Shown here piece after piece: positions 12,462 to 32,403 of a stretch of DNA of 32,403 nt. The translations under genes and the position numbers were made by a program. Location of the stretch: positions 1 to 32,403 of the forward strand of contig CAIUPP010000111.1 in assembly GCA_903901045.1 (NCBI GenBank). The letters are read 5' to 3'. The notes beneath the pieces were generated by a model. It did no database searches and was not told where the DNA came from. It worked only from the letters and a program-made list of their open reading frames with translations. The number at the start of each line of letters is the position of its first letter. Position 1 is the stretch's first letter. The stretch comes from an uncultured Planctomycetota bacterium (GTDB lineage Bacteria > Planctomycetota > Brocadiia > CAIUPP01).

Positions 12462-12538
12462 GGGCCCATAGCTCAGTTGGTCAGAGCAGGGGACTCATAA
12501 TCCCTTGGTCCCTGGTTCGAATCCAGGTGGGCCCACCA
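12462..12538 (+). tRNA. tRNA with anticodon CAU, probably tRNA-Ile2
   Basis: 77 nt including an encoded CCA. The 7-bp acceptor stem is GGGCCCA/TGGGCCC. The D-arm is GCTC...GAGC. The anticodon arm has loop CTCATAA, giving anticodon CAU. The T-arm is CCTGG-TTCGAAT-CCAGG. The GACTCATAATCCCTTGGT context resembles bacterial tRNA-Ile2, whose C34 is changed to lysidine to read AUA, more than initiator or elongator tRNA-Met. The 3' part is duplicated at 22636-22686 as an integration target. The gene is intact, so insertion at its 3' end kept it functional. Confidence 0.96.
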
Positions 12539-14031
12539 TCTTCCAAAGCACCGGAAATGCAAGACGGACTTTGTGTTTCGGGCACATGATGCTCTCTGCA
12601 CCCCTCGGAATTGCCGCCTTCGGTAGCGGCCAGAAGCGGACCGTGGCGGCCCCTTTCGGAACGTGCGACGGTCAGTTTAACGGTCAGTTGATCCGCTGCC
12701 CCGTCGGTGCCTGTCGCGCGCATTGCCTCAGCGTCGTCGCTGTCCAGATTTGGCAGGGTCTCCAACGCCCCCCGCTGGTCCAACACGCTGAGGTGCGTGT
12801 AACGATCCATCGTCAACGTGATCGTCGAATGCCTCATGAGCATTTGAATGACCTTCGGGTTCACACCCGCTTCCATCAGGCGCGTCGCAAACGTGTGACG
12901 CAGGCTATGAAAGTCCACCACGCACCCGGCGGCGTCCCGATCTTTCAGAAAATCCGCCTTGACACGCCGCTTCACTTCCTCGCGGTCGCCCCGCGCCGCC
13001 TTGATCCAGGCGATCCGCGCTGCTTTCAAGTCCGCTTGTAGTATCTTCGCCCCCTGATCCGAGGCCGGCATCGGGAATGCGGCGGCGACGGGCAGACAGT
13101 TCGCCAGGTAGTCACCCATGAAGTGCGCCGTCTTGGCATATAGGGGTAACGTATCTTCCCGCCGATGTTTGCTGTACGCCGCGCTGACGGTGATGGCGGG
13201 CCGGTCTCCGTCCAACTCGAAACTGCCGCGCGTCAGGCTGCGAAGCTCACTCCACCGCAGTCCGGTTTCGAGCGCCAGCTGGTAGAGCGCGGCCCGGTCT
13301 GGCCCACGCATGCCGTAGCGCAGTTCTACGCTGGCTTCAGTCGTCACAAGCAGATGTCGGCATTCATCTGCCGTCAGTGCCCGCCGCTCGCGTCGCCTGT
13401 CTGCTCGTGCGTTCAGCGGCTGCAGGTGGGTGAGTGGGCTGTCCGTCACGCGCCTCTCACACACCAGCCAATGGAAGAATTGCTTGATGGCGGCCAGGTA
13501 GTAGTTGGACGTCTGGGCACTGATTCCCGGCGTCACTCGACCACGGGCATCGCGGCGGTCTCTGCGCATGTCGGCCAATTCGGTTTGAACCCGCGCCGCT
13601 TCGATGTCGCTCAGATTCCTGAAACCACACGCGTCCAAGAGCTTCTTGGCACGAGCGTAGGTTTTCTGCGCGTGCGTGGTGGTTCCGCCCGTGGCTTCGA
13701 GCGCGTGCTTGAAGTCCTCCAAGTGGCCGGCAAGCGGTTTTCCAGCGCCGGCCACGTCGCCCGACAGCAGGTCCCAGTCTTTCATCTGCTCCAAGAGCTT
13801 GGGCGGCAGGATTTCCAGCCATCGTTGCAGGTCCGGGTCCGGTCGCATCCGCGCGGCGCGGAAGGACGCCAGCCGCTCGAAGCTCCGCCCCATGTCCGTC
13901 GCCGCACCCTTATCAGTACCGCAGACGACCGTCCGCAAGCACCCGTTGTGATCATGGAATGCGACGGTGTATTTCGCCGAGACGCCGACGGCATCTCTCT
14001 TGTCCCGCCACCGTCGCTTGAATACCCGCAT
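12481..14031 (-). CDS. int1: Tyrosine recombinase/integrase (int1)
   Basis: A site-specific recombinase of 516 residues. An N-terminal and core-binding region (about 1-215) precedes the catalytic domain, with R259 (ETGLRWSEL), K288 (AYSKHRRED), H375-x-x-R378 (FHSLRHTFATR), H401 (MRHSTIT) and nucleophile Y411 (MDRYTH). All catalytic residues are present. The AYSKHRRED and HSTITLTMDRYTH wording is familiar from planctomycete integrases. A tail of about 100 residues follows Y411. Its last 19 or so residues (ending WIRTRDQGIMSPLL) are encoded antisense to the tRNA 3' half, so this stretch is shaped by the att core and not by protein function. The ATG at 14031 has AGAGGA upstream and a promoter shared with int2. 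Confidence 0.93.
   Translation of the reverse strand: MRVFKRRWRDKRDAVGVSAKYTVAFHDHNGCLRTVVCGTDKGAATDMGRSFERLASFRAARMRPDPDLQRWLEILPPKLLEQMKDWDLLSGDVAGAGKPLAGHLEDFKHALEATGGTTTHAQKTYARAKKLLDACGFRNLSDIEAARVQTELADMRRDRRDARGRVTPGISAQTSNYYLAAIKQFFHWLVCERRVTDSPLTHLQPLNARADRRRERRALTADECRHLLVTTEASVELRYGMRGPDRAALYQLALETGLRWSELRSLTRGSFELDGDRPAITVSAAYSKHRREDTLPLYAKTAHFMGDYLANCLPVAAAFPMPASDQGAKILQADLKAARIAWIKAARGDREEVKRRVKADFLKDRDAAGCVVDFHSLRHTFATRLMEAGVNPKVIQMLMRHSTITLTMDRYTHLSVLDQRGALETLPNLDSDDAEAMRATGTDGAADQLTVKLTVARSERGRHGPLLAATEGGNSEGCREHHVPETQSPSCISGALEDGGPTWIRTRDQGIMSPLL
12490..12540 (+). repeat. att site 1 (tRNA-proximal direct repeat)
   Basis: 51 bp identical to 22636-22686, spanning the tRNA anticodon stem through the CCA end plus TC. 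The flanking bases on the tRNA side differ (G12489 against A22635). Similarity continues less perfectly into the integrase genes on the other side. Confidence 0.9.
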
Positions 14032-14063
14032 GATCTGTCCTCTATTTCCGTGCCCTCAACCGG

Positions 14064-14092
14064 ACGTTACCGTACGTTTCGACACTTATCAA
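14064..14092 (-). promoter_or_regulatory. int1 promoter
   Basis: Minus-strand TTGATA (14087-14092), 17 bp, TAACGT (14064-14069). The same arrangement with similar flanks is found before int2. The region 14093-14253 shows no gene. Confidence 0.6.
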
Positions 14093-14253
14093 GTTACTTA
14101 TCACGCTGTACGTCGGCGGGACCCCTTACCGCAGAATGGGAGATGGTTCTTTCGCTGTTAAGCCATACCATGAAGTAATGGTGAAGTACCGAGGCGGGCG
14201 AAACAGAGACTGAGTCCTCAGCGACTGATGCTTGTCATTCCGTGGGTAGAAGC

Positions 14254-14319
14254 CTTAACGAACTCTTAACGGCATCGCCGCCCATTCTAACAGCAACCTG
14301 ATACCCCTCGTGATAGACT
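14254..14319 (+). promoter_or_regulatory. Candidate KdpE operator and kdp promoter
   Basis: Two identical CTTAACG heptamers at 14254-14260 and 14265-14271 are spaced 11 bp apart, as expected for a dimer of an OmpR-type regulator on one helix face. A possible -10 TAGACT at 14314-14319 has no good -35, which fits an activated promoter with the operator about 55-70 bp upstream of transcription start. kdpF begins about 100 bp further on. Confidence 0.45.
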
Positions 14320-14416
14320 CGCTTATGCCGATTGAGACGCAACGCCGCGACTTCGTACCGCCACGCTGATCAGGCGGTGCGCACAGGCTCGTGTCAAACG
14401 GGTGGAGGATAGGACT

Positions 14417-14506
14417 GTGACGCTGATTGATGTCGTCTGCGGCATCATCGCCGTGGGACTCCTGGCATACTTGTTCGCGGCGCTGTTGAAGCCGGAGAAG
14501 TTCTGA
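14417..14506 (+). CDS. kdpF: KdpF, small stabilising subunit
   Basis: A 29-residue hydrophobic peptide starting at GTG: one transmembrane helix (IIAVGLLAYLFAALLKPEKF at its C-terminal end), the usual KdpF size and LxxPEKF ending. It stabilises the KdpABC potassium pump in the inner membrane. GGAGGA lies about 8 bp upstream. Its TGA overlaps the kdpA ATG by one base. Confidence 0.88.
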   Translation: MTLIDVVCGIIAVGLLAYLFAALLKPEKF

Positions 14507-16284
14507 TGAGCGCCAATGCGTGGTTTCAGATCGCCCTCTATATTGGCGCATTGCTCCTGCTGGCTCTGCCGTTGGGGGCGTACATGGCCAGGGTCTTCGA
14601 GGGTCGCAACCGATGGTCGGGAGCGGTCCTCGGCCCCTTGGAGCGGTTCATCTACCGGGCCTGCGGTGTGCGCGCCGACGCGGAGATGAACTGGAAGCAG
14701 TACGCCGTGGCGATGCTTCTTTTCAACCTGGCCGGGCTTCTGGCCGTCTGCCTGCTTCAGCGGATTCAGGGCGGGCTGCCGCTCAATCCCCAGCACTTGC
14801 CCGGCGTGTCTGCGGACTCCGCCTTCAACACCGCCGCGAGCTTTGCGACCAACACGAACTGGCAGGGGTATGCCGGCGAGTCCACGATGAGCTACCTGAC
14901 GCAAATGCTGGCGCTTACGGTTCAGAACTTCGTCTCGGCGGCCTGCGGGATCGCCGTGCTGGTGGCGCTGATTCGGGGGCTGACGCGCAAGGAGACGGAC
15001 CGCATCGGCAGTTTCTGGGTGGACCTCGCGCGCAGCACGCTGTATGTCCTTCTGCCCCTGTCTATTGTCCTCGCGGTCGTCTTGATCTGGCAAGGCGTGC
15101 CGCAGACGTTCGGCCATTATCCCGCGGTTTCCCTGCTGCAACCCGCGCAGGGCGCAGATGGAAAGGCCGTGACGGAACAGGTCGTGGCCGTCGGTCCGGT
15201 TGCTTCGCAGGTCGCCATCAAGCAACTCGGCACCAACGGCGGCGGCTACTTCAACGTCAACTCCGCCCATCCCTTCGAGAACCCGACGCCACTGTCCAAT
15301 TTTCTGGAGGTGCTGGCGATACTTCTGATCCCGGCAGCGCTCTGCTTCACGTTTGGCAGAATGGTCCGGGACAAGCGACAGGGGTGGGCCATTCTGGCGG
15401 CTATGGTGATTGTCTTTGCGGCGTGCGTCATCGGATGCGTCTGGGCTGAAGAGCGGGGCAATCCGGCGCTGGTGAGTCTCGGCGTAGACCAGCAGACGCA
15501 TGACGACGGAAATGGCGTTCTGACGGTGACCTCATCGAATGCCCAGGCGGGCGGAAACATGGAAGGCAAGGAGGTGCGCTTCGGCCCGGTGAATTCGGCG
15601 ATCTGGGCCACCGCGACGACTTCCGCCTCTAACGGCTCGGTGAACTCCATGCACGACTCCTTCACCCCCTTGGGCGGCCTGATTCCGATCTGGCTGATTC
15701 AGTTGGGAGAGGTCGTCTTTGGAGGAGTTGGGTCGGGACTGTACGGCATGCTCGCCTTTGTCATCGTGACCGTCTTCATCGCCGGGCTGATGGTGGGCCG
15801 GACGCCGGAGTATCTGGGCAAGAAGATCGAGGCGACCGAGATGAAGATGGCGTCGCTGATCATCCTGATTCCGCCGCTGCTGGTTCTCATCGGCACGGCG
15901 CTGGCCGCTGTAACGAACGCGGGAACGTCCAGCCTGGCGAATCCCGGCGCGCACGGCTTCAGCGAGATGCTTTATGCTTTCTCCTCCACGGGCAACAACA
16001 ACGGCAGCGCCTTCGCCGGGCTGAACGCCAACACTCCATTCTACAATTTGGCGACCGGCCTCGTGATGCTCATTGGGCGTTATGCGCTGGCCGTACCGAT
16101 CCTGATCATCGCCGGGGCGCTGGCTCGCAAGAAGATCGTGCCTGCCGGCGCGGGGACGCTGGCTACGCACACGCCGCTCTTTGTGGTCATGCTGATTTCT
16201 TCCGTGCTTCTCGTCGGTGCGCTGTCGTTCATCCCGGCCCTGGCGCTGGGACCGATTGTCGAATACCTGCAAATGCTCCATTGA
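14506..16284 (+). CDS. kdpA: KdpA, potassium-binding channel-like subunit
   Basis: A 592-residue multi-pass inner-membrane subunit that binds K+ and passes it to KdpB. The four filter-like motifs of the superfamily of K+ transporters are readable: TNTNWQGY (115-122), GTNGGGYFN (242-250), GEVVFGGVGSG (401-411) and GNNNGSAFAG (496-505). It is slightly longer than the E. coli protein (557). Translation is coupled to kdpF through a TGATG overlap. Confidence 0.96.
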   Translation: MSANAWFQIALYIGALLLLALPLGAYMARVFEGRNRWSGAVLGPLERFIYRACGVRADAEMNWKQYAVAMLLFNLAGLLAVCLLQRIQGGLPLNPQHLPGVSADSAFNTAASFATNTNWQGYAGESTMSYLTQMLALTVQNFVSAACGIAVLVALIRGLTRKETDRIGSFWVDLARSTLYVLLPLSIVLAVVLIWQGVPQTFGHYPAVSLLQPAQGADGKAVTEQVVAVGPVASQVAIKQLGTNGGGYFNVNSAHPFENPTPLSNFLEVLAILLIPAALCFTFGRMVRDKRQGWAILAAMVIVFAACVIGCVWAEERGNPALVSLGVDQQTHDDGNGVLTVTSSNAQAGGNMEGKEVRFGPVNSAIWATATTSASNGSVNSMHDSFTPLGGLIPIWLIQLGEVVFGGVGSGLYGMLAFVIVTVFIAGLMVGRTPEYLGKKIEATEMKMASLIILIPPLLVLIGTALAAVTNAGTSSLANPGAHGFSEMLYAFSSTGNNNGSAFAGLNANTPFYNLATGLVMLIGRYALAVPILIIAGALARKKIVPAGAGTLATHTPLFVVMLISSVLLVGALSFIPALALGPIVEYLQMLH

Positions 16285-16295
16285 TGTGAGAACGG

Positions 16296-18380
16296 GTGCA
16301 GATCGTGACGACTGAGAAAACGAATAGACGACCGCTCTTCGATCCGCCCATAGTCCGGCGGGCAATCCTGGACTCCGTCCTGAAACTGCACCCCAGGCAT
16401 CAGTGGCGCAACCCGGTGATGTTCACGGTGTTCATCGGCAGCCTGATCACGGCGGCGCTGTTCATTCAGGCGCTGCTGTCCAAGGGGGAAGAGCCTGCCG
16501 GATTCATTCTGGCGGTCTCGGTGTGGCTGTGGTTCACCGTTCTCTTCTCCAACTTTGCCGAGGCGATGGCCGAAGGGCGCGGTCGGGCGCAAGCCGACGC
16601 GCTGCGCAAGGCGCGCCGCGACATCCTCGCCAAGAAGCTGTCCGCTCCATCCCGTGACGCCGCCGTCACGCCAGTGCCTTCCGCCAACCTGCGGACGGGG
16701 GACGTGGTCCTCGTCGAAGCCGGGGAGTTTGTTCCCGGCGACGGCGAAGTGATCGAGGGGGTCGCCTCCGTGGACGAAAGCGCCATCACGGGCGAGAGCG
16801 CGCCGGTGATCCGTGAGAGCGGCGGCGACCGCAGCGCCGTCACCGGCGGAACGCGCGTCCTGTCGGATTGGCTGGTGATCCGTATCACGGCCAACCCCGG
16901 CGAGAGCTTCCTGGATCGGATGATCTCGATGGTCGAGGGGGCCAAGCGCCAGAAGACCCCCAACGAGATTGCGTTGAACATCCTACTCGCGGCCCTTACC
17001 ATCATCTTCCTGATCGTTTGTGCCACGTTGTTGCCGTATTCCATTTACAGCGTGAAAGCCGCCGGTCTTGGGAAGGTCGTCAGTATCACCGTCCTGGTCG
17101 CCCTTTTCGTCTGCCTTGCGCCGACGACCATCGGGGCGCTTCTGTCGGCCATCGGTATTGCGGGGATGGACCGGCTCATCCAAGCCAATTGCATCGCCAT
17201 GTCGGGGCGCGCCGTGGAGGCCGCCGGTGACGTGGATGTCCTGTTGCTGGATAAGACCGGCACGATCACTCTGGGCAACCGGCAAGCCACGGAATTCCTT
17301 CCTGCGCATGGCGTGCGCATGGAGAACCTGGCGGACGCGGCACAACTGGCGTCGCTGGCGGACGAGACCCCCGAAGGGCGAAGCATTGTCGTTCTGGCGA
17401 AAGAGAAGTACGGTCTGCGCGGGCGCGACATTCAGCAACTCGGAGCGACCTTCGTCCCCTTTACGGCGCAGACCCGGATGAGCGGCGTCAACTTGAATGG
17501 GCGCACGATTCGCAAGGGTGCTTCTGACGCCGTCGAGGCGCACGTCCATCGCTTGGGCGGCGCATTTCCTGACGATATCCTGCGGATCGTCCACGCCGTC
17601 GCCCGCGACGGAGCGACGCCGCTGGTGGTCTCGGACGGAGCGAAAGTCCTGGGAGTCATCCGCCTGAAGGATGTCGTTAAGGGGGGAATCCGCGAACGCT
17701 TCCTGGAACTGCGGCGGATGGGTATCAAGACGGTCATGATCACGGGGGACAATCCCCTCACGGCGGCGGCCATCGCAGCGGAAGCCGGTGTGGATGACTT
17801 CTTGGCCGAGGCCACACCGGAGGCCAAGCTGAAATACATCCGCGAGGCCCAGGCGGGCGGGCGCATGGTCGCCATGACCGGCGACGGCACGAATGACGCC
17901 CCCGCGCTGGCGCAGGCGGACGTGGCTGTGGCGATGCACACCGGCACCCAGGCCGCCAAGGAGGCCGGGAACATCATTGATCTGGACTCCAACCCCACCA
18001 AGCTCATTGAAATCGTATCCATCGGCAAGCAGTTGCTCATGACGCGCGGCTCGCTAACGACGTTCAGCATCGCCAATGACGTGGCGAAATACTTCGCCAT
18101 CATTCCGGCGGCGTTCGCGGGCACCTATCCGGCCTTGAACGCCCTGAACATCATGGGGCTGGCGACGCCGCAAAGCGCCATCCTCTCCGCCGTCATCTTC
18201 AACGCCCTGATCATCGTCTTTCTCATTCCACTGGCGCTGCGCGGAGTGAAGTACCGCCCCGTGGGAGCGGCCAGCATCCTCAAGATGAACCTCCTGGTCT
18301 ATGGCGTGGGAGGACTGATTGTGCCGTTTGTCGGCATCAAGCTGATTGACTTGACGCTCGTTGCATTGCGATTGGTATGA
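16296..18380 (+). CDS. kdpB: KdpB, P-type ATPase subunit
   Basis: The 694-residue energising subunit. The actuator TGES is at 165-168, the phosphorylated aspartate D319 is in DKTGT, and the hinge TGDGTNDAP is at 528-536. The transmembrane segment with LAPTTIGAL (about 274-282) is the expected unwound helix. The GTG start at 16296 follows kdpA by 11 bp with a weak ribosome-binding site; a GTG nine bases on is an alternative. Its stop overlaps the upstream edge of kdpC. Confidence 0.96.
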
Positions 18381-18391
18381 GGTGCAGGGTT

Positions 18392-18979
18392 ATGCTCGCT
18401 GAAGTCAAACGACAACTCCGTCCGGCGCTCGTGGCGCTGCTGCTCTTCTCGGTCCTCCTGGGGTTGATATATCCCGTCGTCATCACCGGCATCGCGCACG
18501 CGATCTTTTCGAGGCAGGCCCACGGCTCTCTTATCCAGAGCGAAGGACGGATTATTGGGTCAAATGTGATCGGCCAGCCGTTCAGCGATCCGAAATACTT
18601 CTGGAGCCGCCCGTCGGCTACTGCTCCGTTTCCGTACAACGCCGAGGCATCCTCCGGCTCAAACCTTGGGCCGACGAATCCTGCCCTCCGTGAGGCTGTA
18701 AGTGCTAGAATAGCGGCGTTGCGCGCGGCGGACCCCGGCAACGCCGCGCCGATTCCGATTGATCTGGTCACCGCCTCCGCGAGTGGACTGGACCCGCACG
18801 TTAGCCCGGCGGCGGTTGAGTTCCAGGTGAGGCGGGTCGCCAAGGCGCGGAAACTGGACGAAAAGGCCGTGCGTGGTCTCATCGCGCGATTCACCGAAGA
18901 CCGACAGGCCGGGTTGCTGGGTGAGCCGCGCGTGAACGTGCTCCAATTGAATCTTGCTCTGGACGCCGAAACAAAGTAA
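18392..18979 (+). CDS. kdpC: KdpC, potassium-transporting ATPase C subunit
   Basis: 195 residues: one N-terminal transmembrane helix (about 10-32) and a soluble periplasmic domain with the family motifs LIYPVVITGIA, YFWSRPSAT, SSGSNLGPTNPAL, DLVTASASGLDPHVSP. It probably increases ATP affinity of KdpB. The ATG at 18392 with GAGGTG about 7 bp upstream is preferred to an ATG at 18377 that would overlap the kdpB stop. Confidence 0.94.
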   Translation: MLAEVKRQLRPALVALLLFSVLLGLIYPVVITGIAHAIFSRQAHGSLIQSEGRIIGSNVIGQPFSDPKYFWSRPSATAPFPYNAEASSGSNLGPTNPALREAVSARIAALRAADPGNAAPIPIDLVTASASGLDPHVSPAAVEFQVRRVAKARKLDEKAVRGLIARFTEDRQAGLLGEPRVNVLQLNLALDAETK

Positions 18980-18989
18980 GAGTCATCCG

Positions 18990-21659
18990 ATGGAACCAGC
19001 GCGACCGAATCCCGACGAACTGCTCAAGCAGGTCCAGGCGGAGGAACTGCGCCAGAAACGCGGCAAGCTGAAGATGTTCTTCGGCGCGGCGGCGGGCGTG
19101 GGGAAGACCTACGCCATGCTGGAAGCCGCCCAAGCGCGAAAAGCCGAGGGATTGGACGTACTCGTCGGCATAGTCGAGACTCACGGCCGCAAGGAGACCG
19201 AGGCGCTCCTGCACGGCTTGGAACTGCTCCCGCCGCGCTTTGTCGAGTATCGCGGCACGAAACTGCGTGAATTCGACCTGGACGCCGCCCTGGCGCGCAA
19301 ACCGGCTGTCCTTCTGGTGGACGAACTCGCTCACACCAATGCCCCGGGCAGCCGGCATCCGAAACGCTGGCAGGATGTCCAAGCTCTGCTGGACGCCGGC
19401 ATCAACGTGTATACCACGCTGAATGTCCAGCACGTCGAAAGCCTCAACGACATCATCGCGCAAGTCACGGGAATCTCAGTCCGCGAAACCCTCCCTGATT
19501 CCGTCCTCGAACAGGCGGACGAAATCGAGTTGGTGGACCTCCCGCCGGACGATCTGCTGCAGCGCCTCAAGGAGGGGAAGGTCTATGTCTCCGACCAAGC
19601 GGGGCTGGCCGTCGAGCATTTCTTCCGCAAAGGCAACCTGATCGCCCTGCGCGAGTTGGCCTTGCGGGCCGTGGCCGAGCGCGTGGACCAGCAGGCGCGC
19701 GCCTTCCGCCAGGCGGAGGCGATCACCCGGACCTGGCGCACGTCCGAGCGCATTCTGGTCTGCGTCAGTCCGAGCCCATTCTCGGGCCAACTCGTGCGAG
19801 CGGCCCGGCGCATGGCGGCGGGGCTTCATGCGGATTGGGCCGCGGTCACAGTGGAGCAGCCGGAGCTCTCCGAGGCCGACCGCAAGCGCCTGGTGGAGAA
19901 CCTGGGCCTCGCGCAGCAGTTGGGGGCGCAGACGGCTACGCTGGCCGGCGAAAACGCGGTGGAGGAGATCGTCAAATATGCCCGCCAGAAGAACGTCACG
20001 AAGATCATCGCCGGAAAGCCGGGTTCCCTGCGCTGGCGGGAGCGCTTCAGCGGTTCCTTCGTGGGCAACCTGATCCGCGCCAGCGGTGACATTGACGTGT
20101 ACGTGATCAAGGGGGACGCCGAAGCAGCGGAAGTCACGCGCGCGGTCTCGGTGGAGAATCCGGTCGAGTGGAAACGATACGGATGGGCGGTCCTGTCGGT
20201 CGGGATATGCACCGCCGTTGCGTGGGCCATGAGCGGCTATTTTGAACTCGTGAATATCGTCATGGTGTACCTCCTGGGAGTGGCCGTCATTGCCGCGCGC
20301 GTGGGTCAGGGCCCGGCCATCCTCGCCTCAATCCTCAGCGTCGTGGCCTTTGATTTCTTTTTCGTTCCTCCCTTTCTGACGTTTGCGGTCTCCGACTCCC
20401 AGTACCTTATCACCTTTGCCGTCATGCTGATCGTGGCAATTCTCATCAGCGCACTCGGCGACCGATTGCGACGGCAGGCATTGGTGGCGCAGGAACGCGA
20501 GGGCCGCACGGCCGTCCTCCGGGCGGTCAGCGGACATCTTTCCGGCGCACGGGGGACCGCCGAGATATTGGATATTCTGGCGCAGGATGTTGCCGAGGTC
20601 TTCCGAGGAGACGTGGCCGTGCTGCTGCCGGATGCCACGGGACGGTTGGTCATTCGCGCGGGAAACGAATCCGCTTTTCCCCTGGACGCCCGCGAGCGAG
20701 GGGTTGCGCACTGGGTGCTCGACTTGGGCAGAGCGGCGGGAATGGGCACCGACACCATCCCAAGCGCCGAGTGCCTGTACCTGCCGCTGGCAGGCACGCG
20801 AGGAACGGTCGGCGTGCTCGGTGTGCGCCCCACGCGTGGTGGGCAAGGGCTGACGGCGGAATTGCTTCAATTGCTGGAAGCCGTCGCGGCCCAGGCGGGA
20901 TTGGCCATCGAGAGTCACGCGCTTGCGGAGGAAGCCCGTAAGGCCCAAGTGGAGGCCGAAACGGAAAAATCACGCAATGCCCTCTTGAACTCGGTTTCGC
21001 ACGATCTCAGGACGCCGCTGTCGGCGATCACCGGAGCGGCCAGCACGCTGATGGAGCAGACAGATACGCTGAATGCCCGGACGCGGCGTGAACTCCTTGA
21101 AACCATCGGCGACGAGGCGGGACACATGAGCCGGCTTATCACAAACCTGCTGGAGATGACCCGCCTCGAATCCGGCGCGGCCAAGGTCACGAAGGAGATG
21201 TGCCCCATAGAGGAAGTCATCGGCAGCGCGCGGAACCGATTGGACAAGCAATTGAATCGCCATCGCGTGACGACGAGTCTCCCCGCTGACCTTCCCCCCG
21301 TCCCCCTCGACCCCTTGCTGATGGAACAGGTCTTCATCAATTTGCTGGAAAATGCGGCCAAATATGCGCCGCCGGACTCCGAGATCGAGATCTCCGCAAA
21401 CGCCCGAAGCGACGAATTCACAGTCCAAGTGGCGGATCGCGGACCGGGCATCAACCCCGGCGACGAAAAGAGAATCTTCGAAAAGTTCTATCGTGGGAAA
21501 CTTGGCAAGAGCACATCAGGAGTGGGGCTGGGACTGACGATCTGTCGCGCCATCGTGGAAGCGCACGGCGGGAAGATATGGGTGGAGAACCGCCCGGAAG
21601 GCGGAGCTGCATTCCGCTTCACGCTGCCGATGGAAGACACCCGCGCACAAAGTGAGTGA
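18990..21659 (+). CDS. kdpD: KdpD, K+-responsive sensor histidine kinase
   Basis: 889 residues. The N-terminal KdpD domain has Walker A GAAAGVGKT (32-40) and VLLVDELAHTN (107-117). A universal-stress-protein domain spans about 250-370, four transmembrane helices about 395-490, a GAF-like region about 510-650, then the dimerisation/phosphotransfer helix with H671 (SVSHDLRTPL) and the ATPase core (NLLENAAKYAPP, DRGPGI, GVGLGLTIC). It phosphorylates KdpE under potassium limitation or salt stress. The start at 18990 is 10 bp after kdpC; a longer frame inside kdpC is rejected. Confidence 0.95.
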   Translation: MEPARPNPDELLKQVQAEELRQKRGKLKMFFGAAAGVGKTYAMLEAAQARKAEGLDVLVGIVETHGRKETEALLHGLELLPPRFVEYRGTKLREFDLDAALARKPAVLLVDELAHTNAPGSRHPKRWQDVQALLDAGINVYTTLNVQHVESLNDIIAQVTGISVRETLPDSVLEQADEIELVDLPPDDLLQRLKEGKVYVSDQAGLAVEHFFRKGNLIALRELALRAVAERVDQQARAFRQAEAITRTWRTSERILVCVSPSPFSGQLVRAARRMAAGLHADWAAVTVEQPELSEADRKRLVENLGLAQQLGAQTATLAGENAVEEIVKYARQKNVTKIIAGKPGSLRWRERFSGSFVGNLIRASGDIDVYVIKGDAEAAEVTRAVSVENPVEWKRYGWAVLSVGICTAVAWAMSGYFELVNIVMVYLLGVAVIAARVGQGPAILASILSVVAFDFFFVPPFLTFAVSDSQYLITFAVMLIVAILISALGDRLRRQALVAQEREGRTAVLRAVSGHLSGARGTAEILDILAQDVAEVFRGDVAVLLPDATGRLVIRAGNESAFPLDARERGVAHWVLDLGRAAGMGTDTIPSAECLYLPLAGTRGTVGVLGVRPTRGGQGLTAELLQLLEAVAAQAGLAIESHALAEEARKAQVEAETEKSRNALLNSVSHDLRTPLSAITGAASTLMEQTDTLNARTRRELLETIGDEAGHMSRLITNLLEMTRLESGAAKVTKEMCPIEEVIGSARNRLDKQLNRHRVTTSLPADLPPVPLDPLLMEQVFINLLENAAKYAPPDSEIEISANARSDEFTVQVADRGPGINPGDEKRIFEKFYRGKLGKSTSGVGLGLTICRAIVEAHGGKIWVENRPEGGAAFRFTLPMEDTRAQSE

Positions 21660-21664
21660 GTCGA

Positions 21665-24520: not shown

Positions 24521-26713
24521 CTACAACTGCTCATTCCGAGTACCTCCGCCCGACAATCCAATACCAGAAAAACCTCTCGTTGGCGTGCCGTGAATGCGCC
24601 TTGTGTCGTCGGCAATACCGTCAAGTTTCCGCAAACGCTCGTAGAAAGCCGTCCGGTCCAAGGGAGTGCGTTCGCCCGCCGTCTGTGCCCAGTTCTGATA
24701 AGCTGTGAAGATTTCCGTCCGGCTTGTCCATGCACCCGGATTTAGGATGCAGTGGCTTTCCACAAACTCCGCGAGCAAGTCCTGCTCATCCTGATAGGTA
24801 GCCGTCGCGACCGTCACTGCGTCCGGGGCCTTCAGACCCTCGCGCTGCCATTCGAGGCAGCCTCGCACCGCCCACGCCAAGATCCCAGGCCATTCAGCCA
24901 TGAGCCTCTGTGTCAAGTTCTTGTCTTGCTCGTCGTCCGGTATGACGACCGTGAACGGTATCAGTCGAAGCCGCCGCCAAACCGCATGACTTCCTTCACG
25001 TACACGGGGTTTGTTGTTCGTCGCCAGGATCAGCTTGAATGTGCGCAGAAACTCGAAGTAATTCTGCCGCATGAATCGACCTTTCAAGCGCGCATTGCCC
25101 GTCAGCCGCTTGATCAATTGGACCTTCAGGCGAACGCACTCCTCTGTCTCCGAACTCACGATGAGCCGTCTGCCCGCAAGGTCAGCGATCTCGCATGGAT
25201 GCTCGTCGGAATGCCGCACCACGAGAAGGTCGGGGGCCGCCTCCGCTGCATAGTCGCCGAGTAGGCCACAAAGGGTATCAAGAAAGACGCTCTTGCCATT
25301 CGCACCGGCACCGTAGAACAGAAACAGAGATTGTTCGCTTACGTCGCCGGTAAGGCACATCCCTGCAATCCGCCGAAGGTAGCTGATCATGGCCGGATTG
25401 CCGTCCATGACTCGATCCAGAAAGGCTTCCCACAATGCACACGTCGCCGTTGGGTCGAATACTACTGGCGCGAGTTTCGTAATCAGGTCTTCACGGCGAT
25501 GGTCCCTTAACCTTCCGGTGTGAAGGTCAACGGACCCATTCAGCACGTTCAAGAGAAACGCATCCCTGTCCAAGCTGACGGGCGACACCCCCAGTTCGCA
25601 CCGGGCAAGGTCGACCATCGCGCTGAGGCGTTCTCGAAATTGGGACGAAACCGCCCACCTTGAAAGGGCCTTCTGGCGCGGACCCATTTCATCTTTCGCT
25701 TCGTCGAAAATCGAAAGAGCAACGTCCTTTGCTAGACGCATCACATGGAGGTCCGTGTCCTCGCGCCAGCGGACGCCGTCCCATCTCAGCCACTTCCCAA
25801 AGCCCCCGCAGAACCGCAGGTCACTGCCGTGCCGACGAACAAGCCGCTCCGCGTTGCCCAAGTCTGTCAGGTGCGCAGCCCTTCCCTGGGGGTCTGCACC
25901 ACTGGCTTCATGTGCGCCGGCATGTGACGGTTCCCATGATGCTACTTCTGTCGCCAACTGTAGGAGCACCTCCCGGAGTTGTTCCGGCGTTCTTGAATCC
26001 AGCGACTCGATCCAGTCGGTCGCGTCCTTCCCCTTGCCAGGCATTTCCATCACTTTCACGCATGTGGTTTTGTCATGCAGACGTGCGGCCACGTCCTGAG
26101 CATGTTGGCGTCCCGCCGGGTCTTTATCGGCAACAACTACAACCCGTCGGCCATGCAATGCGACGTCGTCCCGCATGCAGGCCCACTTGCCCGCCCCGCC
26201 GGGGTTGCATGTAGCCGTCAATCCGAGCGCCCGCACATTTTCAACATCTTTCTCCCCCTCACATACGAACACGCATTCAGTCCTATCCGTTGCCAGAAGT
26301 TCGGGTAGGCGATATAAGACACGGGGCGTTTCGTTAAGGTTCCAGACCCAACCATTCCTTCCGTTTGGGCGTCGCTGCCGAAAGTCCTTCGGCTCATAGC
26401 GCACTACCTCAAAAAGCAGAGTCCCGGCCTCATCACGGTAGGGATACGTCGCTACGACCTGACGGGAGTTTTTTCTCGCGCAGGTTTCGTTGCGCTTTGC
26501 AGGGAATAAGTCGCGTGGCCTAATTTTGAGTGCCTGGCAGACTTCATGGAAAGAGCACCCCGCCTGACAGTGCAGAAGCACTCGACCATCATCGCCAACC
26601 GACACACTCAAGCTGGGTTTCCGGTCATCATGCGCCGGGCAACGGGCCGTCCATTTCCTGTCTCCGCACGACCGCACGCCGGAAAGCTTGGACAAGATCA
26701 TCGGCTTCTGCAC
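24521..26713 (-). CDS. P4-type primase-helicase (zinc finger, TOPRIM, SF3 helicase)
   Basis: A 730-residue replication protein of the phage P4 alpha/D5 type that primes and unwinds the element's own origin. In order: a zinc-binding primase finger with C25-x2-H28 and C49-x3-C53; a TOPRIM-like domain with CEGEKD (151-156) and VADKDPAG (194-201); a D5-N type linker at about 285-450; and a superfamily 3 helicase with Walker A GAGANGKS (468-475), RLIVSSETEE (516-525) and LATNNKPR (563-570). The GTG at 26713 is chosen because GAGAGGAG lies 7 bp upstream; an internal ATG at 26701 would give an ATGA overlap with the previous gene. It suggests autonomous replication after excision. Confidence 0.9.
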   Translation of the reverse strand: MQKPMILSKLSGVRSCGDRKWTARCPAHDDRKPSLSVSVGDDGRVLLHCQAGCSFHEVCQALKIRPRDLFPAKRNETCARKNSRQVVATYPYRDEAGTLLFEVVRYEPKDFRQRRPNGRNGWVWNLNETPRVLYRLPELLATDRTECVFVCEGEKDVENVRALGLTATCNPGGAGKWACMRDDVALHGRRVVVVADKDPAGRQHAQDVAARLHDKTTCVKVMEMPGKGKDATDWIESLDSRTPEQLREVLLQLATEVASWEPSHAGAHEASGADPQGRAAHLTDLGNAERLVRRHGSDLRFCGGFGKWLRWDGVRWREDTDLHVMRLAKDVALSIFDEAKDEMGPRQKALSRWAVSSQFRERLSAMVDLARCELGVSPVSLDRDAFLLNVLNGSVDLHTGRLRDHRREDLITKLAPVVFDPTATCALWEAFLDRVMDGNPAMISYLRRIAGMCLTGDVSEQSLFLFYGAGANGKSVFLDTLCGLLGDYAAEAAPDLLVVRHSDEHPCEIADLAGRRLIVSSETEECVRLKVQLIKRLTGNARLKGRFMRQNYFEFLRTFKLILATNNKPRVREGSHAVWRRLRLIPFTVVIPDDEQDKNLTQRLMAEWPGILAWAVRGCLEWQREGLKAPDAVTVATATYQDEQDLLAEFVESHCILNPGAWTSRTEIFTAYQNWAQTAGERTPLDRTAFYERLRKLDGIADDTRRIHGTPTRGFSGIGLSGGGTRNEQL

Positions 26714-26955
26714 GGGTAGTCTCCTCTCAATTCATAAACCCAACGTGTTGCCGGCGGACAGCCGCGAGCAACCCAGTCGGAAAATTCCTGTGCACGTACG
26801 CGCTGAAGTCTGCGAGTCAGAGTGATCACCTCAGGGCCGAAACTACCGGAAGCGCGGAGTCGCCGGAGTTCCCGAACGGATATGCCGAGGCCAGCGGCCA
26901 CTTGGGGAAGCGTAAGTAGCGTGGCGGGTGGGGTGGGGTGGGAGTTCTCGGTCAT
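26698..26955 (-). CDS. AlpA-like/MerR-type helix-turn-helix protein
   Basis: 85 residues. The core LTLPQVAAGLGISVRELRRLR is a MerR-type HTH of the AlpA/excisionase superfamily, followed by a wing (TRRLQRVRAQEFSDWVARG). It probably controls the integrase or acts as recombination directionality factor; which of the two is not decidable. The ATG at 26955 (GGAAGGCGGTGG upstream) is preferred to the frame opening at 27018. The stop overlaps the primase start, so the two are translated together. Confidence 0.75.
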   Translation of the reverse strand: MTENSHPTPPATLLTLPQVAAGLGISVRELRRLRASGSFGPEVITLTRRLQRVRAQEFSDWVARGCPPATRWVYELRGDYPCRSR

Positions 26956-27256
26956 CGTCCACCGCCTTCCCGACCGTGTTGGGGGCCAGCGAGGCCATGC
27001 CGCCTCTTGTGGCGGCACGCCCGTTCTGTCCGGCGCACGGTCTTGGGATAGCCCTCAGTTGCTTTCATCGAGCAGGTAAGGGCTTGTTCGGCCTTCCGTA
27101 TCGAGTCCATGTTCTGCGCTCCCGCATGCTGTGTGGCTGAAACGTGAGCGCAATGCTATGTGGTGGGCTCTCAGAAAAGTCGAAAAGAAACTGACTTTCT
27201 ACGGATATTCAGGCGGGATAAGGGCAGAATACGGAGGCCACGATTCGAGCAGAAAC
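26956..27256. other. Gap with no recognised content
   Basis: About 300 bp between the AlpA-like gene and the next leftward gene. I see no coding frame, strong hairpin or clear promoter here. Confidence 0.5.
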
Positions 27257-28381
27257 TCAGTTGCCGCGCTTCTTGGGTGTTCCCCGGCCCAGTCTTTTCA
27301 GCATGTCCTTCATGGCAGGCTTATCGGCGTTCTTAGGCTCGGCAACCTGGCGCGCCTCTCGCCGCGCGATATAGTTCTTGCACCAAACGTCAGCGTCCTT
27401 TGCCTTGACGTAGACGTTCCGTCCATCTTTTCGCGCAGGCAAATGGTTCAAATCCTTTTCCGGTAGTCGCGTCGCCTTTGATAGCGTCGGAAGACCAACA
27501 TCGTATTTCAGGGCGACTTCTGACAATGTCATTTCCTGACTGTTGTTTGAAGCAGGCGGGGTTGCCACCTCCACCATCAAAACGCGTTTCAGGTTGAACA
27601 AAGCGGAAATGCACGGCTCATTGAGGCGCTCAATTGCATTTTTCGTGTCCTGCGCGGGAAGGACACCTCGCCAAAACGAGTAGACCGATTTTGCAAGCTC
27701 TTTGAATGGCTCAAGGTCAACGCCACGGGGAATGGCCGCCAGGCAAAGCATTTCATGATCGCGATTGAAACGATCAAACCATGCGTCGTCGAGATCGCAA
27801 GCCATTCGCCCGGCCTCGGCAGGTGACATCAAGAAGAAGGTATTGAAACCCGCCATGCGCTCAATCATTCGATTGCAGTGAGCGAGTAGTGCGGCAGGTG
27901 TGGCCTGCGCATAGTCTTCAATACGATTCGCGTCTTCTGCTTCACCCCTATGATAGATGAGGGGGTAGATCGGGCTTTCATTCAGTAAAGGCAGCGGGCA
28001 ATCCGCCTTCACTTTTTCAAACCATGCCGGAAGGTGATGAACAGCGTCCGGCGTCAGCATCCCCAGGTGGTCAATGATGGAATGCCAGTCACCCAGCAAC
28101 GCCTGCTCTGCACCCCCGCCATGCGGCCCACTATCATGGAGCGCCCCTAAGAGTACGTACGCCTCATCAAGGTCACGCGGGCCATGTTCCATCATAGCTT
28201 CTATCGCACACGATAGGGCACCAGCGTCATCGCCCTTTGTCAGTCGCTTGCAGTAAGCGGCGACTGTTTCTAGGAAACGAGTCCGCGTCAAGTCATCGCT
28301 CAGGAAGTCCGCCAGGGCAGCGCGAAGGTTCGTCAGAATCGTTTCAGCCTTGTCATCATCGTCCATATTGCGTCTCTCCAT
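27257..28381 (-). CDS. Unknown protein with C-terminal DNA-binding segment
   Basis: 374 residues, not recognised. About residues 1-270 look helical and acidic at the start (MERRNMDDDDKAE) with no catalytic motif that I can name. Residues about 288-345 (LSEVALKYDVGLPTLSKAT, then GRNVYVKAKDADVWCKNY) resemble a helix-turn-helix with wing of the HTH_17 kind, followed by a lysine-rich end (GRGTPKKRGN). The ATG at 28381 has GGGAGG about 5 bp upstream. It lies in the leftward set with the AlpA-like and primase genes, so a role in replication or regulation of the element is inferred. Confidence 0.7.
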   Translation of the reverse strand: MERRNMDDDDKAETILTNLRAALADFLSDDLTRTRFLETVAAYCKRLTKGDDAGALSCAIEAMMEHGPRDLDEAYVLLGALHDSGPHGGGAEQALLGDWHSIIDHLGMLTPDAVHHLPAWFEKVKADCPLPLLNESPIYPLIYHRGEAEDANRIEDYAQATPAALLAHCNRMIERMAGFNTFFLMSPAEAGRMACDLDDAWFDRFNRDHEMLCLAAIPRGVDLEPFKELAKSVYSFWRGVLPAQDTKNAIERLNEPCISALFNLKRVLMVEVATPPASNNSQEMTLSEVALKYDVGLPTLSKATRLPEKDLNHLPARKDGRNVYVKAKDADVWCKNYIARREARQVAEPKNADKPAMKDMLKRLGRGTPKKRGN

Positions 28382-28542
28382 GCAGCCTCCCGCAAACGGG
28401 CGTGGCGAATACCGGCGAAAGTTGCCGGCGTTTCGGAAGCTACCTTATCGAAGAACGCATTGAAATCAAGTATCGCCCTTGCTCCACGTCGAGTAATCGG
28501 GAACTTCGTTCGTTCCCCTCCGAAATCGGTCACGCTCTCCAT
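28333..28542 (-). CDS. Possible small protein, 69 aa
   Basis: A frame that begins inside the last codons of the upstream gene and overlaps the next gene's start by about 49 bp, filling the only gap in this leftward run. The middle (ARAILDFNAFFDKVASETP) looks protein-like and amphipathic. There is no clear ribosome-binding site, so translation would rely on coupling. It may equally be spurious. Confidence 0.35.
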   Translation of the reverse strand: MESVTDFGGERTKFPITRRGARAILDFNAFFDKVASETPATFAGIRHARLREAAWRDAIWTMMTRLKRF

Positions 28543-28895
28543 CCCAGCTGCTTCGCCACTCGCTTGATCTGTGTGATGAACGCATCACCCGGGCGCTTAC
28601 GCTGAACTTCGGGATTGGACGTGGCCGCCCAGCGATAGATCTGCTCGATTGCGCCGTACCCCCGTCCGAAGCCTCGCGCATGCTTCAGACAGTTCTCCTT
28701 GGTTGGCGCATCCGACAGAACAACACGCAACTCATCATCCGTCCACGGCTCTCCCTTACGGTCTTCATCCCAGCCCTGCTCCTGTTCCCACTCACGAATC
28801 GTTTCCGTAAAAACCCGCCTCAACTCATAAGGGTCAACGTCGCGATTCTCTGTGATGATCTGCCGAAACTGGCGCTTCCACACTCGCATAGGCAT
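28530..28895 (-). CDS. Small protein with Myb/SANT-like segment, 121 aa
   Basis: Not assigned to a named family. Residues about 50-92 begin PWTDDELRVVLSDAP and contain spaced tryptophan and tyrosine, recalling SANT/Myb-type DNA-binding segments in phage and element proteins. The N-terminus is basic and helical, and the C-terminus (FITQIKRVAKQLGWRA) is a basic helix. It is the first gene of the leftward series and may be its regulator. Two ATGs (28895 and 6 bp later) are possible starts. Confidence 0.6.
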   Translation of the reverse strand: MPMRVWKRQFRQIITENRDVDPYELRRVFTETIREWEQEQGWDEDRKGEPWTDDELRVVLSDAPTKENCLKHARGFGRGYGAIEQIYRWAATSNPEVQRKRPGDAFITQIKRVAKQLGWRA

Positions 28896-29465
28896 GGGGT
28901 AGCCCTTTCCTCAGTAAGGTGTGCGCCGGGGATGTCCGCACCCTCCGCAATTTCCAGTCATCACCTTATGCCACCGGTGGGATTCTACTACGACCAGACG
29001 GGAAATACTATGGGGCTTCAACCGGCGGTTGCCAACTGACGGTCAATCAACCGGATGCGAGTCTGAAGTTCTGTCAGGTCCAGCAACAGCCCTTGTGTCG
29101 CCACACTCTTGACCCTTATCAAGGGATAGCTGGGTACGCTCGTTCTAAGGAAAGCAAAACGGCGCGAGTTCGGGAGAGGCTGGCGCGCTGCCCTTTCCGT
29201 CCCGCATGAGATTCTACTACGCCCCGCCATTAAACGCCATACCTGGAACAACTGTGGGCGTCAGCGTGGCGGGGGCGACGAAAGGGGCAGAACACACCTC
29301 GTCAGACTGAGAGTAATCTCTGCACAATGCTACACGAGCACAGAAGATAACTCCTTGCGGAATGTCACTGCCGCAGAGTATCATCCCTAACACGTCCGTG
29401 TGCCGGGGCGGGTGAATCAGCCAAATTGGAGAAGGCGATTCGGACAAATCTGAAAGGACTTGGCT
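28896..29465. other. Divergent intergenic region with a 12-bp direct repeat
   Basis: 570 bp between leftward replication genes and rightward nuclease genes. GATTCTACTACG occurs at 28981-28992 and again at 29210-29221, each followed by (A/C)CC. On the minus strand these read CGTAGTAGAAT and could include -10 elements. No gene is supported; a leftward frame ending at 29018 has a helical-looking end (LTELQTRIRLIDRQLATAG) but a non-coding character before it. Confidence 0.45.
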
Positions 29466-30554
29466 ATGGCCGATAAGCCCAGGAAGTCTCTGCCGCCCGC
29501 AGGTCGTCAATCCGAGCAGGCAATGGTGCAGCAATCCGCCGCACAACTTCCTTCCGACTACGGCCCCTTCCTTGAAGACCTGAAAACGCGAATTCAGACC
29601 GCTCGCGTCAAGGCGGCTCTTGCCGCGAACCGCGAGATGGTCTTGCTCTACTGGGACATTGGCCGTCGCATACTTGAACGCCAGAAGGCCCAAGGGTGGG
29701 GTGCGAAGGTCGTTGAACGTTTGGCTCACGATCTGCGGATCGCGTTCCCTGACATGAAGGGTTTCTCACGAGCGAACATCCTTTATATGCGCGCCTTTGC
29801 CGACGCCTACCCGGATGTGACGATTGTCCAGCAGGCTGCTGGACAAATCCCCTGGTTCCACAACGTTGTTATCCTAGAGAAGATCAAAGACCCTGCCACT
29901 CGCCTCTGGTACGTCAGAAAGACCATCGAGCACGGTTGGAGCCGCGCCGTCCTCGTCCACCAGATCGAGAGCGCCCTGCACGAGCGCCACGGCAAGGCCG
30001 TCACGAACTTCGACCGCACACTACCCGCGCCGCAGTCCGATTTAGCGCGGCAGACCCTCAAAGACCCGTACCTTTTCGACTTCCTCTCCCTCGCCGAAGA
30101 CGCGCACGAGCGGGATTTGGAGCGCGGGTTGGTTGAGCACATCCGAAAGTTCCTGATCGAACTCGGCGTCGGGTTCGCGTTTGTCGGCAGCCAGTACCAC
30201 CTCGAAGTCGAGGGCGAGGACTTCTATCTCGACCTGCTCTTCTACCACCTACGCCTGCGCTGCTTCGTGGTCATTGACTTGAAGATGGAGTCGTTCAAAC
30301 CGGAGTACGCGGGCAAGATGAACTTCTACCTGTCCGCCGTGGACGCGCAACTGCGGCACCCCGGCGACAACCCGACCATCGGCATCATCCTGTGCAAAAC
30401 CCGCAAGCGCCTCATTGCCGAATACGCACTACGCAATACCCGGACGCCCATCGGCGTCAGCGAATACAAGCTCACTCGCGCCATCCCCGCCGCGCTCAAA
30501 TCCAGCCTGCCGAGTATCAAAGAGTTGGAGAAGGAGTTGGGGCATGAGGGGTGA
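29466..30554 (+). CDS. YhcG/DUF1016-family PD-(D/E)XK nuclease
   Basis: 362 residues. The DUF1016 N-terminal winged-helix-like domain spans about 35-190 (YWDIGRRILERQ, GFSRANILYMRAF, IPWFHNVVIL). The C-terminal nuclease domain (about 198-350) has D256 in FYLDLLFYH and D271-x-K273 in VVIDLK, the PD-(D/E)XK core, followed by GKMNFYLSAVDAQLRHPGDNPTIGIILC. The family is found near restriction-modification and in defence islands; its substrate is unsettled. The ATG at 29466 has AAGGA upstream; a TTG two codons earlier is an alternative. Confidence 0.92.
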   Translation: MADKPRKSLPPAGRQSEQAMVQQSAAQLPSDYGPFLEDLKTRIQTARVKAALAANREMVLLYWDIGRRILERQKAQGWGAKVVERLAHDLRIAFPDMKGFSRANILYMRAFADAYPDVTIVQQAAGQIPWFHNVVILEKIKDPATRLWYVRKTIEHGWSRAVLVHQIESALHERHGKAVTNFDRTLPAPQSDLARQTLKDPYLFDFLSLAEDAHERDLERGLVEHIRKFLIELGVGFAFVGSQYHLEVEGEDFYLDLLFYHLRLRCFVVIDLKMESFKPEYAGKMNFYLSAVDAQLRHPGDNPTIGIILCKTRKRLIAEYALRNTRTPIGVSEYKLTRAIPAALKSSLPSIKELEKELGHEG

Positions 30555-30639: not shown

Positions 30640-30669
30640 TTGACCCAAGAGGGGGAAGGGGGGTACTCT
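30640..30669 (+). promoter_or_regulatory. Possible promoter upstream of the GIY-YIG/HARE gene
   Basis: TTGACC (30640-30645), 18 bp, TACTCT (30664-30669). It is followed by a GAAGGAGG stretch (30712-30719) that has no start codon at a suitable distance. Confidence 0.35.
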
Positions 30670-30917: not shown

Positions 30918-30951
30918 GGGAGCAGTCCGGTTGATGCTCCCGATTTGTTTT
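30918..30951 (+). terminator. Possible rho-independent terminator
   Basis: GGGAGCA (30918-30924) and TGCTCCC (30935-30941) form a 7-bp stem with a 10-nt loop, followed by GATTTGTTTT. It would separate the YhcG unit from the next gene, or attenuate transcription from 30640. Confidence 0.5.
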
Positions 30952-31011
30952 AAGGGCTTCGGGCCGAAAGACCGCTTCTCACACGGCAACGTCAAGTGAA
31001 AGGAGCTGCCC

Positions 31012-31932
31012 ATGCCGAAAGCGATCAACTTCAAGAGGGTGGTCATGAGGTTGACGGAGTCTGCCACGCGTGTCGCTGAGAAAGAGAGACAAGAAGGCAT
31101 TAACACGATAGCGGAGACCATTCGGACTATTCTGCGGCGGCAGTCATGGGGTAAACCGGGCACAGTCAAGATGAAGATTCTCGCGGAGTCTTATGCGCAG
31201 ATTAGAGAAGCTGTTACTTGCATTGACGCAACCCATTGTCTGCGGGAACACGCATTTGCCAAAGGTACACGATGGCTTGAATTCCACATTCCGCAGGCAT
31301 CTGACAACATGGATACACTGGACGCGCTGATACGAGAGGTGAAGGAAAGTTTGCGGAAGACCGGCTTGATTGAACGCGGATTCGTCTACGTAGTATGGTC
31401 CCTAAGGCCAAGAGAATTCTTCTACATAGGCAAAGCGCAGACTGTTGACCGCCTTGGTCATGGGAAATTCGCCTATGGGTCGGCATATGCCACGCGCCTT
31501 AGCCTTATCTTCCCTGCAAAGAACCAGGACGCTGCAAGGGCACAGGTGGAGGCGAGCTTGCTTGCTGTGATAAAGCGCATGACGAACGGGCAGCCTGAAC
31601 AGAATAAGCGAAAGGAACCCGTGCCAGCGGGGTGCGCCTCGCGCGACCTGGACAAACTCGCACATTTCATGACGGCGCAACAAGAGGCACTCAGCGGCCG
31701 GGGGACGAAGCAGACCACGCTCCTGGACGCAGCGGTCGCCATATTACGTAAAGCTAGCCGGCCAATGAGCGTTCAGGAAATAGTCGGGAAGATCCGAGCC
31801 AAACGCCTTTGGCGCAGCGAGGGCAAGACGCCCACCGCGACGCTCAGTTCGTCGATCCTGCGGGAAATACAAGACAAGGGTGACGACGCCCGTTTCATCA
31901 AGGTGGGGCCGGGCAGGTTCGCGTTGAAGTGA
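31012..31932 (+). CDS. Predicted GIY-YIG nuclease fused to HARE-HTH domain
   Basis: 306 residues. A helical N-terminus (1-120) precedes a GIY-YIG-like core: GFVYVVW (123-129) in place of GIY, FFYIGKA (136-142) for YIG, R147, the conserved glutamate candidate E180 (QVEASLLAVI) and N198. Residues about 234-306 match the HARE-HTH fold (LLDAAVAILRKASRPMSVQEIV, then ATLSSSILREI, and FIKVGPGRFALK), a winged helix shared with ASXL, HB1 and restriction endonucleases and proposed to sense modified DNA bases. Together these suggest a DNA-cutting enzyme directed to a base state. AAGGAG lies about 7 bp upstream. The 120-aa gene follows after 39 bp. The nuclease assignment rests on motif reading. Confidence 0.7.
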   Translation: MPKAINFKRVVMRLTESATRVAEKERQEGINTIAETIRTILRRQSWGKPGTVKMKILAESYAQIREAVTCIDATHCLREHAFAKGTRWLEFHIPQASDNMDTLDALIREVKESLRKTGLIERGFVYVVWSLRPREFFYIGKAQTVDRLGHGKFAYGSAYATRLSLIFPAKNQDAARAQVEASLLAVIKRMTNGQPEQNKRKEPVPAGCASRDLDKLAHFMTAQQEALSGRGTKQTTLLDAAVAILRKASRPMSVQEIVGKIRAKRLWRSEGKTPTATLSSSILREIQDKGDDARFIKVGPGRFALK

Positions 31933-31971
31933 GTATCCAAGTAATCACGACATATGGAATGGGAGGCGAAC

Positions 31972-32334
31972 ATGGCAGGCTATTCAAGGTTCTATGTGGT
32001 CGGCGGTCTCGGCGGGTTCCAGGGCGCAGATGGCGTCAACCCCATTACGTTTCAAATCCTAGTCCGCGACCAACCGGGGCAGCGGCTCGAAGCTCACTAC
32101 TTCGATTCCAGCATCAGACCGCTTGGGAAGATTCGCACGATTGTTCCTGCCGGCCCGGACACCCCGGAAGCTCTCATTGATGCCTGTATCGTCTTCTATC
32201 CTGGCCACTTCAAGGCATGTCCTTCACTCGCGAAGGTGCGCGAAAAGCTTAAGAATGCAAAAGGGCTAGAGCATATTAACATTTTACACCTACGTTGCAG
32301 TGACGAAAAAAGCCCTGGCTGTCCTGCGGCGTAA
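31972..32334 (+). CDS. Unknown 120-aa protein downstream of the GIY-YIG/HARE gene
   Basis: Not recognised. It starts at the ATG at 31972, with GGGAGG 5 bp upstream, preferred over an ATG at 31954. The N-terminal half is beta-rich with glycines (YVVGGLGGFQGADGVNP), and the C-terminal half is helical (SLAKVREKLKNAKG). There is no signal peptide or transmembrane segment. The close spacing suggests co-expression with the nuclease, as an accessory or immunity partner by inference. The remaining 69 bp of the window show no feature. Confidence 0.6.
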   Translation: MAGYSRFYVVGGLGGFQGADGVNPITFQILVRDQPGQRLEAHYFDSSIRPLGKIRTIVPAGPDTPEALIDACIVFYPGHFKACPSLAKVREKLKNAKGLEHINILHLRCSDEKSPGCPAA

Positions 32335-32403
32335 CGGCGTCGAGCGCTGAGGCGATGGCTGTCAAAAGCGCGTCATGCGTTCGAGCGCACAGGCGTTTGA
32401 GGA

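Follow-up and report, generated by a model that had tools for sequence, protein, structure and literature searches.

The contig CAIUPP010000111.1 of an uncultured Planctomycetota bacterium was analysed over a stretch of 32,403 nucleotides, referred to as the window, which appears to hold two related integrative elements stacked on one tRNA gene. The inner one, element 1 (12490-22635), is very probably a tRNA island consisting of an integrase and its cargo, a horizontally acquired kdpFABCDE operon, and is stacked on the related element 2. A preliminary description had proposed two such tRNA-integrated elements, the inner one with a full kdp operon, and this is still the best reading of the locus, with the tRNA, the repeats, and the intact integrases confirmed. 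The following features define the target site, the presumed left and right attachment sites (attL and attR), and the recombinases.

12462-12538, plus strand: likely tRNA-Ile2 (CAU) gene (ARAGORN), presumed target site; its 3' part from 12490 would be attL of element 1.
12490-12540, plus strand: putative attL core of element 1, 51 bp, with an exact copy at 22636-22686 and 46 bp common to contig C46 of the same genome.
12481-14031, minus strand: int1, an intact tyrosine recombinase of 516 aa (PF00589), the C-terminus of which is encoded by tRNA sequence.
22636-22686, plus strand: middle core, a truncated tRNA within the 51-bp exact repeat, read as attR of element 1 and attL of element 2.
22633-24177, minus strand: int2, an intact tyrosine recombinase of 514 aa (PF00589).

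The tRNA with the CAU anticodon is the single one found by ARAGORN. It is likely a tRNA-Ile2 because its closest match in E. coli is an annotated tRNA-Ile and its acceptor stem contains the pairs C4-G69 and C5-G68; TilS determinants in the acceptor stem are the known basis for this assignment. An exact 51-bp repeat of the tRNA 3' end at a distance of 10.1 kb had been described before and was recovered: the final 49 bases of the tRNA and the two following nucleotides recur with a spacing of 10,146 bp, and the distal copy is scored by Rfam as a tRNA-like remnant. The far boundary is thus marked by a direct repeat of tRNA 3' sequence, as in tRNA-integrated islands. The sole further copy of the core in the 4.77-Mb genome of 154 contigs is located at position 16542 of C46 and matches at 46 of 49 nt. 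A 16S rRNA gene is missing from this assembly, and gene content tentatively suggests Planctomycetota. In this copy, 46 identical bases are followed by TTT where the copies at 12490 and 22636 read CCA. The CCA-bearing ends may have been contributed by the incoming elements, and the C46 copy may represent the original chromosomal end. Just 5' of the tRNA, at 12278-12396, there is an inverted repeat of 34 nt (91%, 51-nt loop) with GTTGAAC-like repeated units.

One integrase gene is found at each of the two repeats in the window. The preliminary description had called these genes near-identical and had let them start at the repeats; their proteins are 88% identical, and the genes, which lie on the minus strand, end there, so that they start at the repeats along the plus strand only. 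Both terminate inside the core repeats, and their final ~15 codons are the 3' half of the tRNA in antisense. The catalytic residues R, K, HxxR, H, and Y were visible on inspection of the translations. Because dS is 0.32 and dN 0.069 (Nei-Gojobori; dN/dS about 0.2), the lines of int1 and int2 appear to have split some time ago, with purifying selection kept on both since. The homologous region comprises ~1.5 kb of DNA with 89% identity, the differences being spread throughout both genes, and it ends ~70 bp upstream of int. Beyond int, arms, and core, the two elements have in common just a ~36-bp stretch upstream of int. Of 58 loci of the int1/int2 family, 39 (counted from the locus rows; 31 under a narrower script cut-off) have the integrase gene converging on the 3' end of a tRNA, either with an overlap or at a distance of up to ~320 bp, and at least a dozen tRNA species serve as targets. 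Searches of plasmids, phages, and IMG/VR with the integrase gave zero matches at the limits used, and a scan of named genomes gave merely distant catalytic-domain matches. On contig C138 of the same genome, a 45-57% identical integrase is encoded beside a tRNA-Leu(UAG); the 3' end of this integrase gene contains a separate repeat, ACTGTACCGGAA.

The cores are flanked by short repeated words, which are presumed to be arm-type integrase sites.

12667-12692, plus strand: left arm of element 1, presumed integrase sites within the int1 3' coding end; two spaced CGGTCAGT repeats, the second being CGGTCAGTTGAT at 12681.
22590-22623, plus strand: right arm of element 1, with ACGGTCAGTTGAT and ATGAGCTTGTGTTTAC.
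22813-22838, plus strand: left arm of element 2, presumed integrase sites (repeated words).

CGGTCAGT occurs five times in the window, twice in the left arm and once in the right arm of element 1 and twice in the left arm of element 2. The 12-mer CGGTCAGTTGAT is present in the window at 12681, 22592, and 22827 only, and on C46 solely beside the core, where TTGATGCANATGAGCTTGTGTTTAC, common to the right arm of element 1, is found as well. The longest word shared by left and right arm has 13 nt in element 1 and 12 nt in element 2 together with C46. Among 2000 simulated arm pairs, the longest shared word had 12 nt in five, 14 nt in three, and more in none. In a related element of the genome G001, which belongs to the sister genus, both arms share a 16-nt word of a different sequence, which suggests that the arm sequence changes along with the integrase.

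These features also bear on whether the contig was assembled correctly. It is highly improbable that elements of different strains were joined at a shared repeat in this metagenome-derived contig. The fragmentation of the genome and the combination of ~1.5 kb of similar int sequence with an identical 51-bp core would permit such a join, but the int genes differ throughout, which leaves only a short stretch of identity at the junction, and the middle core is flanked on either side by an arm sequence of its own. Misbinning of the contig is disfavoured, as the LpxD encoded on the chromosomal flank is closest to that of the sister genus (70%).

Element 1 contains one integrase and a complete kdpFABCDE operon, as had been claimed, and further genes were not recognised in family scans.

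14249-14270, plus strand: 11-bp tandem repeat, possible KdpE operator (from sequence only).
14417-14506, plus strand: kdpF (PF09604).
14506-16284, plus strand: kdpA (TIGR00680).
16296-18380, plus strand: kdpB (TIGR01497, 1075 bits, cut-off 528).
18377-18979, plus strand: kdpC (curated family match).
18990-21659, plus strand: kdpD, sensor kinase (curated family match).
21656-22360, plus strand: kdpE, response regulator (curated family match).

All six genes are full length, each with a match to a curated family. The start of kdpD is more likely the ATG at 18990 than the TTG at 18954, where the open reading frame begins. The distal core repeat follows 275 bp past kdpE, accompanied by a matching right arm. 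A candidate operator had been mentioned in the preliminary description; the tandem repeat at 14249-14270 upstream of kdpF could be meant and might be bound by KdpE, but it is a short repeat of no more than two copies. A sigma-70-type promoter was not found in a search upstream of kdp. In the host genome, kdp is single-copy, and TrkH is encoded elsewhere.

Among 147 genomes searched, kdp was present in 13 and absent from G001. In a KdpBCDE tree, the kdp of the window is sister to that of G333, a genome of another class (SH-aLRT 100), and separate from the kdp of seven genomes of its own class. Constraining the window and the same-class kdp to one clade was 42.8 log units worse (p-AU 0.00044), and vertical descent is rejected by this topology test. 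Horizontal acquisition is the best-supported reading because of the sister relation to another class and the rejected same-class grouping. A kdp phylogeny matching the species tree had been named as a finding that would speak against mobility; kdp departs from taxonomy instead, and no relative was found in which kdp occupies this place while integrases are missing. It is extremely improbable that kdp is native beside the tRNA and that element 2 integrated nearby, with an integrase copy landing upstream of kdp by chance. The operon does occur in scattered genomes of the same class, but the position of the far repeat and its arm just behind kdpE, the absence of kdp from the sister genus, and the rejection of a vertical grouping argue against this explanation. 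In G333, both integrase and tRNA are absent from the 1.6 kb past kdpE.

In four further genomes of the phylum (G129, G372, G412, and G176), kdp lies ~0.4-1.2 kb downstream of the 3' end of a tmRNA or tRNA-Arg gene on the same strand. A rough binomial estimate for this proximity gives P about 2e-5 if the loci are taken as independent and 6 Mb as holding 60 RNA genes. One candidate distal repeat is present in G372, where 14 nt of the tmRNA 3' end recur without mismatch 17.7 kb downstream. Integrases of the int1/int2 family are absent from these four loci, and the scanned genes of G372 are without a recombinase domain. Possibly, these loci are older kdp islands.

A comparison of the tRNA-Ile2 locus in relatives had been suggested. 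G001, the sole other genome of the same family among those compared, has an equivalent tRNA-Ile2 (93% identical); a related integrase gene occupies the corresponding position, and the distal repeat, of 49 bp, follows at a distance of 33.4 kb. The site is thus occupied by an element like element 1 in target tRNA, integrase family, topology, and arm logic, but its cargo differs: the 33-kb defence island (G001:C111:125155-158670) encodes type III-A CRISPR-Cas and DISARM/Druantia-like genes (DrmD/DrmMI, DruE-like) instead of kdp.

Element 2 is readable in the window as far as a repeat in which the contig ends.

24521-26713, minus strand: P4-family primase/helicase (TIGR01613, 294 bits, cut-off 109).
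26698-27018, minus strand: helix-turn-helix (HTH) protein resembling an excisionase or regulator (phrog_66; marginally below the Pfam cut-off).
29460-30554, plus strand: YhcG/DUF1016 nuclease, defence candidate PDC-S02 (defence-system match).
32263-32403, no strand assigned: start of a seven-copy repeat, with the contig end inside element 2; IS630 3' end by reading of the sequence.

With a P4-family primase, an integrase, and a regulator-like HTH protein, element 2 may be a P4-like phage satellite; capsid or packaging genes were not seen in it. Relaxase and type IV secretion genes were not found among the scanned genes of element 1 or of the readable part of element 2, an unread gap remaining. 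The proteins encoded at 27257-28381 and 28530-28895 and at the C46 locus L012:7131-8888 have no Pfam or PHROGs match. Position 32403 had been taken as the end of the elements; this did not hold, as the contig ends inside the repeat and the far end of element 2 lies outside the window. The repeat, interpreted as an IS630 3' end, occurs at seven places in the genome, near the ends of other contigs. At the start of C46 lies an IS630-like transposase, represented by its opposite end and matching in orientation, followed by a MurA-like gene (with a 57% paralogue on contig C60), type I-E CRISPR-Cas with a 24-repeat array, the core copy, and chromosomal-type genes. The C46 core copy is likely the far end of element 2, across the contig gap.

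On this basis, element 1 can be read as a minimal element that integrates site-specifically and consists of one tyrosine recombinase, an attachment site, and kdpFABCDE, closed by the core at 22636. The integrase would recognise the core together with the CGGTCAGT arm repeats to its left and right and join the attachment site of the element (attP) to the 3' part of tRNA-Ile2. Element 1 would thereby provide a new tRNA 3' end including CCA and keep the tRNA whole, and the old end would become the distal repeat. Because the core sits in the 3' coding end of int, integration would also alter the last residues of the integrase. Element 2, with its related integrase, P4-type primase, and excisionase-like HTH protein, would sit in the adjacent copy of this site and probably terminates on C46 beside the type I-E CRISPR-Cas genes. 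Kdp is predicted to act as a conventional high-affinity K+ pump controlled by its own KdpDE. The sequence itself displays the repeats, the intact genes, the repeated arm words, and the horizontal origin of kdp, and integrase binding, excision, transfer, and possible assistance by element 2 are predicted from it. The preliminary description had noted the lack of an excisionase in element 1, and none was recognised, the excisionase-like HTH gene being found in element 2 only; mobilisation of element 1 by element 2 is plausible.

Several observations weigh against the interpretation of element 1 as a stacked island with acquired kdp. It is without a recognisable excisionase or transfer gene and may therefore be fixed. 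The link to C46 passes through a seven-copy repeat, so that other joins would be possible. The kdp contig of G333 measures 7 kb and belongs to a fragmented genome with 4% contamination, and misbinning could affect the sister relation to the kdp of the window; the rejection of the same-class grouping does not depend on this relation alone. In no relative was kdp found beside an integrase of the int1/int2 family, G209 being the sole relative with any integrase near kdp, a distant one (26%). Finally, neither an empty site nor a circular junction was seen; in G001, the chromosomal flanks are not syntenic with the window and so offer no empty tRNA-Ile2 site for comparison. The lack of transfer genes, of an excisionase in element 1, and of an observed circular junction, and the fact that both elements have only int, arms, and core in common, would also fit a single decayed composite island, in which kdp and int2 would be leftovers of one older element that have become fixed, or the repeat arose from a tandem duplication of int plus core, with nothing mobile now. 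This is improbable, as both integrases are intact and diverged under constraint (dS 0.32, dN/dS about 0.2), the words in the arms and the copies of the core are preserved, and each core is followed by its own integrase and unrelated cargo. The stacked island with acquired kdp might be extended to a rather doubtful general view, in which the int1/int2 family forms phylum-wide stackable integrase-plus-cargo islands, with arms evolving along with the integrase, a C-terminus rewritten at each integration, and cargo switching between defence against phages and uptake of ions; element 1 would then be near-minimal and mobile with assistance from its stacked neighbour.

Element 1 represents a compact case of an integrase-only island, whose boundaries, presumed arm sites, and cargo are readable base by base and can be set beside those of a sister element at the equivalent tRNA. 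It further suggests that a self-regulated potassium pump passes between classes of one phylum, and it offers a simple system for asking whether minimal islands rely on a stacked partner. Hackl et al. 2023 reportedly described tycheposons. These resemble element 1 in being tRNA-bounded and in having a tyrosine recombinase and nutrient-acquisition cargo, with reported sizes of 4-200 kb, and differ in being reported in marine cyanobacteria and others, as far as the second-hand description in PMC10872708 goes.

Mobile kdp is known from the staphylococcal cassette chromosome SCCmec, as the preliminary description had stated, but its distribution reaches well beyond. Tn4371-like integrative and conjugative elements (ICEs) carry kdp as cargo (PMC2789088), Acidithiobacillus caldus has kdp on ICEs and a plasmid (PMC3826726), a Shewanella I-F3 CRISPR-associated transposon (CAST) carries it (PMC12452197), and a KdpB match was obtained on 461 of 72,556 PLSDB plasmid records. 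Stacked islands at RNA genes and their possible cis-mobilisation have been published as well (PMC3146451, PMC5704250). Element 1 is thus a clean further example of both phenomena. In the Dehalococcoides ssrA-specific islands (vcr-GI, PMC3146451), tandem arrangement, copies of an RNA-gene 3' end as bounds, a recombinase at the left edge, and a one-operon cargo are found likewise, and islands without an integrase may be cis-mobilised; these islands use serine recombinases, a six-gene module, and a tmRNA target, whereas element 1 has one tyrosine recombinase and a presumed tRNA-Ile2 target. Accretion tandems of integrative and mobilizable elements, ICEs, and cis-mobilizable elements (PMC5704250) likewise have two elements with the same att specificity on a single tRNA, where cis-mobilisation may occur; they differ from the present tandem, in the readable part of which relaxase and conjugation genes were not recognised. 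The kdp-bearing ICEs, CAST, and SCCmec resemble element 1 in that an integrating element carries a kdp operon, but these conjugative, transposition, or Ccr systems are larger and hold many further genes, whereas the cargo of element 1 is kdpFABCDE alone. The unusual feature of element 1 therefore appears to be its economy, with one recombinase and one self-regulated operon.

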